Source: Mycobacterium sp.
Lineage (GTDB): Bacteria > Actinomycetota > Actinomycetes > Mycobacteriales > Mycobacteriaceae
DNA length: 34,063 nt
Assembly (NCBI GenBank): GCA_025965975.1
Contig: JAOPVX010000276.1
Location: 1-34,063, forward strand
Direction: 5' to 3'
Shown here: piece by piece, positions 13,103 to 14,711 of the stretch
Layout of the letters: each line of letters begins with the position of its first letter
Position numbering within the stretch: the first letter of the stretch is position 1
The notes under the pieces: model-generated
Told to the model about the DNA's origin: nothing
The model's database searches: none
Seen by the model: only the letters and a program-made list of their open reading frames with translations
Program-made: the position numbers and the translations under genes

Positions 13103-13134
13103 CAGTGCCCTCGCTTCTTCGCGCGAGCGCTCAT
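13102..13134 (-). CDS. Mini-ORF 1 of a TGATG relay (MSARAKKRGH)
   Basis: The ATG shares its A with the TGA of the mutase large-subunit gene (TGATG). Ten codons later a TGA shares its A with the next ATG. The peptide is basic and unlikely to have a function of its own. A role in passing ribosomes from the large to the small subunit gene by termination-reinitiation is inferred. Confidence 0.5.
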   Translation of the reverse strand: MSARAKKRGH

Positions 13135-14711
13135 CAGAACACCACCGGTTGCTGGAACTCGCCCCACACGGCCTTGAGCGCGCAGACCATCTCCCCAACG
13201 GTGCAGTAGGCGTTGGCGCAGTCGATCAGCTTGTGCATCAGGTTGTCGGTGCCTTCCGCGGATTTCGACAGCGCGGCTAGTGCCTCTTTGACGGCCGCGG
13301 GGTCCCGCTCGGCCTTGACCTTGGACAGTCGCTTCAGTTGAAGGTCGCGGCCCTCGGCATCCAATTCATACGTTGCGATTTCGGGGGGCGGCTCATCGGC
13401 GACGAACTTGTTGACCCCGACGACGGGCCGGACACCCGATTCCACTTCGTGGTGGATCTTGAACGCCTCATCGGCGATCAGGCCCTGCAGATAACCGTCC
13501 TCGATGGCGCGCACCATGCCGCCGTGCGTCTCGAGATCATGCATGATCTCGATGATCTTCTCCTCGGTCGCGTCGGTGAGCGCCTCGACGAAATAGGACC
13601 CGCCCAGCGGATCGGCCACCTTCGCGACGCCGGTCTCGTAAGCCAGGATCTGCTGGGTGCGCAGCGCCAGCGTTGCGGACTCCTCGCTTGGCAGCGCGAA
13701 CGGCTCGTCCCAGGCGGCGGTGAACATGGACTGCACACCGCCAAGCACCGCGGCCATCGCCTCATAGGCCACGCGCACGAGATTGTTCTGGGCCTGCGGT
13801 GCGTAGAGGGAGGCGCCGCCTGCCACACAACCGAACCGGAACATCGACGCCTTGTCCGTGGAGGCGCCGTAGCGTTCGCGCACGATCGTGGCCCACCGCC
13901 GGCGGCCCGCCCGATACTTGGCGATCTCCTCGAAGAAGTCCCCGTGGGTATAGAAGAAGAACGAGACCTGCGGGGCGAACTGATCGATGCTCATCCGGCC
14001 CCGCTCGACCACGGTGTCGCAGTAAGTGACCCCGTCGGCCAGCGTGAAGGCCATCTCCTGAACCGCGTTGGCGCCGGCGTCGCGGAAATGCGCACCGGCC
14101 ACCGAGATCGCGTTGAACCTTGGCACCTCGGCCGCGCAGAACTCGATGGTGTCGGCGATCAGCCGCAGCGACGGCTGCGGCGGCCAGATCCAGGTGCCGC
14201 GCGAGGCGTACTCCTTGAGGATGTCGTTCTGGATGGTGCCGGTGAGCTTGGCGCGCGGCACCCCCTTGCGCTCCGCGGCCGCCACATAGAAGGCCAGCAG
14301 GATCGCGGCCGTGCCGTTGATGGTGAAGCTGGTGCTGATCTTGTCCACCGGGATGCCGTCGAACAGGATCTCGGCGTCGGCCAGCGTGTCGACCGCGACC
14401 CCGACGCGGCCGACTTCCTCACCGAACTCCGGGTCGTCGGAGTCGTACCCGCACTGAGTGGGCAGATCCAGTGCCACCGACAGCCCCGTTCCGCCCTGGT
14501 CCAGCAGGTAGCGGTAGCGCCGGTTGGATTCCTCGGCCGTGCCAAAACCCGAGTACTGACGAAACGTCCAGGTCTTGCCGCGGTACCCGCTGGCAAAGTT
14601 GCCTCGGGTAAACGGAAACGTGCCGGGCGCAGGCGGATCGCCGCCGCGGTCAGCCGGTCCGTAGACGGGCTCCAGCGGGATGCCGGAGGGTGTCTGTACT
14701 GGGTCGCTCAT
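13134..14711 (-). CDS. B12-dependent acyl-CoA mutase, catalytic large subunit
   Basis: The 525-residue protein is the TIM-barrel catalytic subunit of the methylmalonyl-CoA mutase family without the cobalamin domain. The size is near IcmA/HcmA (about 560). Substrate-site residues can be aligned by eye. RQY gives Y53, as in methylmalonyl-CoA mutase Y89 (Phe in isobutyryl-, Ile in 2-hydroxyisobutyryl-CoA mutase). R171 in GTIQNDILKEYASRG matches R207 (Gln in the other two). H208 matches H244. The residue before the His is Ala207 in GAHFRDAG, whereas P. shermanii has Tyr243. A carboxyl-bearing but larger substrate is inferred. The ATG at 14711 is preferred because the operator at 14738 lies upstream of it. 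Confidence 0.93.
   Translation of the reverse strand: MSDPVQTPSGIPLEPVYGPADRGGDPPAPGTFPFTRGNFASGYRGKTWTFRQYSGFGTAEESNRRYRYLLDQGGTGLSVALDLPTQCGYDSDDPEFGEEVGRVGVAVDTLADAEILFDGIPVDKISTSFTINGTAAILLAFYVAAAERKGVPRAKLTGTIQNDILKEYASRGTWIWPPQPSLRLIADTIEFCAAEVPRFNAISVAGAHFRDAGANAVQEMAFTLADGVTYCDTVVERGRMSIDQFAPQVSFFFYTHGDFFEEIAKYRAGRRRWATIVRERYGASTDKASMFRFGCVAGGASLYAPQAQNNLVRVAYEAMAAVLGGVQSMFTAAWDEPFALPSEESATLALRTQQILAYETGVAKVADPLGGSYFVEALTDATEEKIIEIMHDLETHGGMVRAIEDGYLQGLIADEAFKIHHEVESGVRPVVGVNKFVADEPPPEIATYELDAEGRDLQLKRLSKVKAERDPAAVKEALAALSKSAEGTDNLMHKLIDCANAYCTVGEMVCALKAVWGEFQQPVVF

Follow-up and report, generated by a model that had tools for sequence, protein, structure and literature searches.

A 34,063-nt stretch of Mycobacterium sp. 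DNA (contig JAOPVX010000276.1 of assembly GCA_025965975.1, hereafter the window) encodes a two-subunit, B12-dependent acyl-CoA mutase that, judged from its sequence, belongs to a new, real, and well-conserved subfamily of a known enzyme class. The residues with which methylmalonyl-CoA mutase (MCM) grips the acid group of its substrate are kept, but the active site is altered in the same way across members, and the substrate of the subfamily is therefore probably a bulkier acid. Both domain matches place the pair among the B12-dependent acyl-CoA mutases (PF01642 and PF02310). PF01642 covers the whole length of the 525-aa large subunit (650.5 bits, cut-off 22.1), which is also matched by TIGR00641 (651.9 bits, cut-off 303.8); the small subunit is matched by TIGR00640 (145.3 bits, cut-off 57.45), and its LDGHDRG sequence has the DxHxxG motif of the base-off/His-on B12 type. 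The equivalog PRK09426, a model built for a single chain that includes the B12 domain, gave 569.2 on the large subunit against a cut-off of 876. A longer reading frame for the mutase begins at TTG 14891, yet we prefer the ATG at 14711, since most tblastn alignments with relatives start no more than a few residues from M1 and a conserved motif is found immediately before it. The same 7.4 Mb genome encodes a MutA/MutB-like pair on another contig.

Residue numbers follow the alignment to MCM of P. shermanii (1REQ), with literature numbering taken as the printed chain position plus one. In MCM, Y89 and R207 hold the substrate carboxylate and H244 holds the thioester. A preliminary description of the window had equated Y53 and R171 of the mutase with Y89 and R207 and had placed Ala207, just before the catalytic His208, at the position of Tyr243; the alignment bears out both assignments, with His208 falling on H244. 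It also confirms that the Tyr/Arg pair differs from other mutases, as positions 89/207 are Ile/Gln in 2-hydroxyisobutyryl-CoA mutase (HCM, 4R3U) and the Methylibium homologue, and Phe/Gln in rows resembling isobutyryl-CoA mutase (ICM-like). The split subunit architecture and the presence of a MeaB in the same cluster, both part of that description, hold as well, the B12-binding subunit being a separate protein and the MeaB gene lying 9 kb off. A split layout together with Tyr/Arg is not unusual by itself, since proteins of Ilyobacter and of a Streptomyces canus plasmid are likewise split and keep Y243.

The Tyr-to-Ala change belongs to a whole group of fixed substitutions, which takes it beyond the earlier single-residue observation. 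Our residue survey spanned 218 places with 181 distinct sequences, after pieces shorter than 450 residues were dropped. Among the 136 sequences with at least 70% identity (window included), A243, G328, V330, A241, L117, A334, A366, R207, H244, and E370 are invariant, and G78 and Y89 occur in 135, with one sequence gapped. A Sulfitobacter relative at 57% identity agrees at ten of these twelve sites, the exceptions being Ser at 334 and Cys at 366. Relative to MCM, the subfamily thus carries S241A, Y243A, H328G, Q330V, F117L, and M78G and has lost N366; G328 and V330 are G294 and V296 of the window's protein. Y243, H328, Q330, and E370 are, by comparison, invariant in all 40 mutases at 40–55% identity, and N366 is present in 38 of them; G78 is not exclusive to the subfamily and occurs in one of these 40. 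Four rows fall below 40% identity, three of which have Tyr at 243, and the fourth, a badly aligned Sphingobium row (L226), has Ala. Two of these rows (L172 and L117) are of the ethylmalonyl-CoA mutase (ECM) type, an identity that we assign from residues; they have G328 and have lost N366 but keep Y243 and Q330. A row for IcmF keeps Y243, H328, Q330, and N366. The subfamily therefore shows Y89, R207, and H244 of the MCM signature, with Ala, Gly, and Val in place of Y243, H328, and Q330 in 136/136 sequences. It has neither the Phe/Gln of ICM at 89/207 nor the Ile/Gln plus Asp116 of HCM, these sites being Tyr, Arg, and Ala. On alignment, several pocket positions carry smaller side chains, and the carboxylate-binding pair is retained.

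A 60-row maximum-likelihood tree separates the subfamily from all of its reference groups; unnamed rows in it were labelled (ICM-like, ECM-type) by inference from residues, and named IcmA, MatB/ActD, and alkylsuccinyl-CoA mutase sequences were absent from its references. Together with the Sulfitobacter sequence, the subfamily forms one clade of 20 rows (support 100/99), nested in a set of 37 rows (98/98) that includes the MCM and ECM-type rows. All members of this larger set have Tyr89/Arg207 except the long-branched L226, whose residues we do not trust because of its long branch and poor alignment, and the rows with Phe/Gln, Ile/Gln, or Val/Gln (ICM-like, HCM, and others) fall outside it. The subfamily joins neither the MCM, ECM-type, ICM-like, nor HCM rows, and the ECM-type rows, at 38% identity, form a separate branch. 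The preliminary description had named, as an outcome that would undo its proposal, close clustering with a characterised mutase subfamily that ordinarily has Ala at 243; no such clustering is seen among the references in the tree. L226, from a plasmid of Sphingobium sp. TomTYG74, is a very divergent mutase encoded with a B12 protein and a MeaB, and genes for a P450 and a TonB receptor are close by; the pocket residues of L226, unsurely aligned, resemble those of no other row.

Searches covered Actinomycetota genomes, plasmids, and viral contigs, plus one wider scan (best 80 of 410 used). An orthologue is present by E-value (1e-250 or lower) in 152 of 198 genomes of the genus, a count that takes in one broken copy (G076) and one incomplete match (G157); of the others, 44 have only weaker matches and two have none. 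At 1e-190 or lower, matches were found in 39/298 genomes of the order sample and 46/394 of the class sample, the latter contributing members down to 75% identity. In the phylum sample (n = 396), twelve of the matches listed have at least 83% identity and the next at most 54%. The subfamily also occurs in Rhodococcus, Nocardia, and further actinobacterial families, and on one Sulfitobacter plasmid, which is the best (57.4%) among the best 60 of 427 matching plasmid records. Viral contigs yielded three relatives, one of them nearly full-length, too few to be used for a deep alignment. The orthologous mutase of G076 is broken (two pieces, one stop), and its match to the PF04909 partner described below has no stops. 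G132 has two subfamily copies (L201 and L202), one beside a GTPase-like match and a CoA-transferase, where no F420 oxidoreductase was found.

A rare, conserved motif precedes the mutase and recurs at a second locus. The 188 bp that separate the mutase from the divergent gene for a short-chain dehydrogenase/reductase (SDR; 14712–14899) contain two exact copies of ATGAGAATGCCAATACC. The core TGGCATTCTC, read on the mutase strand, precedes the mutase in 147 of the 164 upstream stretches examined (some genomes were counted twice), and its spacing to the first codon is 25, 26, or 38 nt in 143 of those stretches. With at most one mismatch, GAGAATGCCAATACC was present in 13 of 18 chosen genomes; a reversed control pattern matched twice in the 18. 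All nine of the searched genus genomes that carry the mutase had the motif both at the mutase region and at a locus encoding a ligase (or PF04909 protein) and a crotonase that we call ECH-S. This second site lies between the divergent genes for the acyl-CoA ligase and ECH-S, the PF04909 gene taking the ligase's place in G132; in the window's own genome, the site is at about 3056–3072 of that locus (L236, contig C203). Outside the genus, the motif occurs at both mutase and ligase in G783, at the mutase alone in G246 and G1173, and at the mutase plus a single unrelated position in G1139. No site was found in G075, which lacks the mutase. The families of the second locus also adjoin the mutase elsewhere: among 36 loci compared, the PF04909 protein does so in nine (59–73% identity), the ligase in seven (64–70%), and ECH-S in nine (54–72%), besides the more distant Sulfitobacter one. 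This common upstream motif, a putative operator, links the mutase to the ligase, PF04909 protein, and ECH-S of the second locus. In the nine genus genomes, the lone site elsewhere is an extra copy in the window's own genome (contig C416, L235), near small secreted-looking proteins with no obvious pathway link. At 13071–13136, between the mutase genes, a sequence of about 32 nt occurs twice in tandem; the DNA preceding the second motif locus has similar TTCGCG-rich repeats.

The genes around the mutase are collected in the table. Neighbours were surveyed in 82 loci (the 80 of the wider scan plus L114 and L115, the latter outside the clade) with fixed identity thresholds.

Table. Features of the mutase cluster in the window (positions are those of the window)
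Feature	Position	Strand	Remarks
TetR-family regulator	2228..2830	+	cluster edge
MeaB-type GTPase (mutase chaperone)	2960..3835	-	PF03308; TIGR00750 245.6 bits, cut-off 240.75
SDR oxidoreductase SDR1	3866..4738	+	often kept with the module
SDR oxidoreductase SDR2	4735..5481	+	
Crotonase-fold protein	5497..6261	-	both catalytic Glu positions replaced (Ser, His) in alignment
Acyl-CoA dehydrogenase, large subunit	6263..7351	-	
Acyl-CoA dehydrogenase, short subunit	7338..8153	-	best partial match IpdE2, 71.9 bits, cut-off 450
AMP-forming acyl-CoA ligase LigA	8138..9535	-	
FAD/NAD/2Fe-2S oxygenase reductase	9610..10650	+	PaaE/GbcB-like, below equivalog cut-offs
Family III (CaiB-type) CoA-transferase	10638..11717	-	PF02515 281.7 bits
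F420-dependent oxidoreductase, luciferase-like monooxygenase (LLM) class	11714..12670	-	TIGR03564 359.1 bits, cut-off 234.25
Mutase small, B12-binding subunit	12672..13070	-	132 aa, LDGHDRG; PF02310 and TIGR00640 above cut-off
Mutase large, catalytic subunit	13134..14711	-	525 aa, PF01642, ATG start at 14711
Putative operator, copy 1	14736..14752	+	ATGAGAATGCCAATACC; core TGGCATTCTC ends 26 nt before mutase start
Putative operator, copy 2	14845..14861	+	upstream of divergent SDR gene
SDR oxidoreductase SDR3	14900..15724	+	PRK08278 subfamily, divergent from mutase
AMP-forming acyl-CoA ligase LigB	15721..17253	+	

Closest to the mutase, the B12 subunit accompanies it in 79 of the 80 loci and in L114, the F420 oxidoreductase in 78 of the 80 (none in L114), and the CoA-transferase in 77 of the 80 and in L114; the three loci without the CoA-transferase (L020, L045, and L046) have a contig end close by. 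Over all 82 loci, LigA is found in 67, the short dehydrogenase subunit in 66, the large one in 64, SDR3 in 64 (at 55% identity or higher, 64 of the 80), the crotonase in 63, SDR1 in 54, MeaB in 40, and the reductase in 12. MeaB is undercounted because many loci stop before its position; the reductase count is low even in loci that cover its stretch, and a reductase lies near the mutase in several other families. In more distant families, the mutase, B12 subunit, LLM-class oxidoreductase, and CoA-transferase recur, frequently accompanied by LigA, the reductase, and both dehydrogenase subunits, and in one f87 locus, the mutase is directly beside a reductase and a Rieske oxygenase. The Sulfitobacter plasmid has the compact order ECH, mutase, B12 subunit, CoA transferase, and GTPase, with genes for a tripartite ATP-independent periplasmic (TRAP) transporter on both sides. 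The best partial profile matches of the CoA-transferase are to succinate/glutarate, oxalate, and mesaconate CoA-transferases. That this 359-aa protein is an alpha-methylacyl-CoA racemase was rejected, as it matches solved CoA-transferases at 6.8e-49 and racemases at 1e-21 at best.

The ECH-S proteins group together from Sulfitobacter to mycobacteria (19 rows, support 96/87), and all 19 keep the first catalytic Glu and have Gln at the second. E. coli ScpB, annotated as methylmalonyl-CoA decarboxylase, likewise keeps the first Glu and lacks the second; at 20% identity, we rejected ECH-S as its orthologue and retained the analogy. ECH-S is preferred as candidate decarboxylase over the window's own crotonase (5497–6261), which was set aside because both of its Glu are replaced and no close homologue occurs in the f87/f88 loci; a close homologue of that crotonase has a solved structure (3rrv, E = 1.8e-134). 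The nearest characterised PDB chain to the PF04909 protein is PtmU3 (3.7e-20), which PMC10811679 counts among the amidohydrolase-related dinuclear oxygenases. The PF04909 protein of L236 may thus be a dinuclear oxygenase, and the 2Fe-2S reductase of the window could be its electron donor. The PF04909 partner is present in 152/152 mutase-bearing genomes of the genus and in 7/46 without the mutase, somewhat above the background set by the control gene AdCyc (140/152 and 12/46), an unrelated neighbour that seemingly has paralogues.

We consider it somewhat more likely than not that the pair rearranges a branched dicarboxylyl-CoA as part of aerobic catabolism. The preliminary description had proposed a new carboxylated, bulkier or branched substrate; the separate clade, the smaller pocket side chains, and the CoA-transferase neighbour favour this, and the substrate itself stays a prediction. 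R207/Y89 and the family of the CoA-transferase point to a dicarboxylate, the set of smaller side chains to its bulk, and the gene neighbours and motif to a pathway. Substrate class, direction, and each catalytic step below are what we infer from the sequence, clade, residues, neighbours, and motif. The neighbouring CaiB-type transferase would attach CoA to a free dicarboxylic acid. The remaining free carboxylate would then be gripped by Tyr89/Arg207 and the thioester by His244, as in MCM, and the smaller side chains at 243, 328, 330, and 366 would make room for branches of the acyl chain or for a quaternary carbon. The adenosyl radical, supplied by adenosylcobalamin, would shift the CO-SCoA group to the adjacent carbon. 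In the Sulfitobacter cluster, the product may pass to ECH-S, which, on the model of the E. coli Scp operon, may act as decarboxylase and not as hydratase. That the reaction runs from a succinyl-type to a malonyl-type compound with subsequent decarboxylation is a tentative suggestion to which we give less than an even chance by some way. Much more speculative is that the mutase breaks quaternary carbons: it would take, e.g., a 2,2-dialkylsuccinate with CoA on the branched side, and CO-SCoA would leave the fully substituted carbon via a tertiary radical to give a sec-alkylmalonyl-CoA, which ECH-S would decarboxylate to an ordinary branched acyl-CoA. If true, this would be an aerobic, B12-dependent breakdown of gem-dimethyl or ring-derived acids, e.g., terpenoid fragments, common in mycobacteria.

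Several observations weigh against this assignment. The best PDB sequence match of the mutase by phmmer is HCM (4R3U, 504.5 bits), not MCM, and the loss of Q330 and N366 is compatible with altered adenosyl handling rather than a bigger substrate. The CoA-transferase attains no equivalog cut-off. The module is not uniform, since the F420-dependent, LLM-class oxidoreductase is absent from the Sulfitobacter locus, and several distant actinobacterial loci lack it or the CoA-transferase. Four genomes outside the genus (G1126, G220, G666, and G594) carry the mutase, yet no copy of the motif was found in them. Given the AdCyc counts, co-occurrence with the PF04909 partner mostly reflects genome reduction or descent, which weakens it as strong proof of a common pathway. 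The decarboxylase role of ECH-S is weak and its tie to Sulfitobacter modest, because of the low identity to ScpB, because the own-genome ECH-S is closer to an ordinary PDB hydratase (37% over 193 columns), and because the Sulfitobacter ECH-S sits on a long branch with 33% identity over 238 columns to the own-genome one.

Among other explanations, an ethylmalonyl-CoA/methylsuccinyl-CoA mutase arrived at by convergence survives best, although we hold it to be unlikely. The ECM substrate is one carbon larger than methylmalonyl-CoA, and the two inferred ECM rows share H328G, the loss of N366 (Pro), and Tyr89/Arg207 with the subfamily; however, their retention of Y243 and Q330, their low identity, and their separate place in the tree argue against it, and a Pfam scan of 30 window proteins recognised no crotonyl-CoA carboxylase/reductase. 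A mutase for monocarboxylic branched acyl-CoAs (pivalyl-, isobutyryl-, or 2-hydroxyisobutyryl-type) that reuses Arg207 for another polar group is a still slimmer prospect. It would suit the two-subunit layout, the closeness to HCM among PDB sequences, and the neighbouring ligases, which could serve monocarboxylic acids, yet the ICM-like and HCM rows have Gln207 where R207 is present in 136/136 subfamily sequences (and Y89 in all but the gapped one), and the CoA-transferase resembles dicarboxylate enzymes. We think it improbable that the losses of Q330, N366, and Y243 affect only how the adenosyl group is handled (use of a different radical or cobamide) and leave the substrate no larger. Q330 and N366 lie near the adenosyl ribose in MCM and E370 is kept, but the ECM-type rows also lack N366 although ECM is a normal adenosylcobalamin enzyme, the B12 subunit has the standard LDGHDRG, and the cluster has a MeaB. 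Least probable is an ordinary MCM isozyme with a drifted pocket, which would share the family and Tyr89/Arg207/His244, because the altered residues never vary among 136 sequences and so do not reflect drift, the genome has its MutA/MutB-like pair elsewhere, and the subfamily lies outside the MCM clade.

Set against known systems, the predicted dicarboxylyl-CoA mutase shares its family, Tyr89/Arg207/His244/E370, B12 dependence, and GTPase partner with MCM (P. shermanii 1REQ, human, and E. coli ScpA), and differs in Y243A, H328G, Q330V, N366A, S241A, F117L, its separate B12 subunit, and its separate clade. HcmA/HcmB (4R3U; Methylibium) resemble it in having two subunits with an AMP-binding ligase and MeaB nearby, and differ at 89, 207, and 116 (Ile/Gln/Asp instead of Tyr/Arg/Ala). 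The Sulfitobacter locus is like the E. coli Scp operon in combining mutase, GTPase, crotonase-fold enzyme, and CoA-transferase, whereas ScpB is remote from ECH-S and the Scp substrate is succinate/methylmalonyl-CoA; ScpC belongs to a different CoA-transferase type. To our knowledge, only a few reactions are established in the acyl-CoA mutase family. Bulky carboxylated substrates have a proposed precedent in MatB/ActD (matlystatin, actinonin), for which PMC5719088 proposes a mutase acting on hexylmalonyl-CoA/2-pentylsuccinyl-CoA. As described there, and compared by description rather than by residues, MatB/ActD also combine a large subunit with a separate B12 protein; unlike the window's genes, they sit in biosynthetic clusters with a carboxylase/reductase and an epimerase. 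HCM-type and lactyl-CoA mutases are treated in PMC13188929 and PMC11599936. Titles and abstract openings, covering few subscription papers, yielded nothing on the subfamily or on a quaternary-carbon route.

A conserved subfamily with a changed pocket, widespread in the genus, points to a common compound with an undescribed breakdown route, and the shared motif names specific partner genes that make the pathway testable. The subfamily is also a possible scaffold for carbon-skeleton shifts in bulkier acids. The annotated member on the Sulfitobacter plasmid is named "methylmalonyl-CoA mutase family protein," a name that could mislead metabolic models.

Elsewhere in the window, a perfect 16-nt inverted repeat (2178–2217) lies upstream of the TetR gene at 2228 and is perhaps its own operator, and 31878–32654 encodes a LAGLIDADG-like protein of homing-endonuclease type with a helix-turn-helix match.

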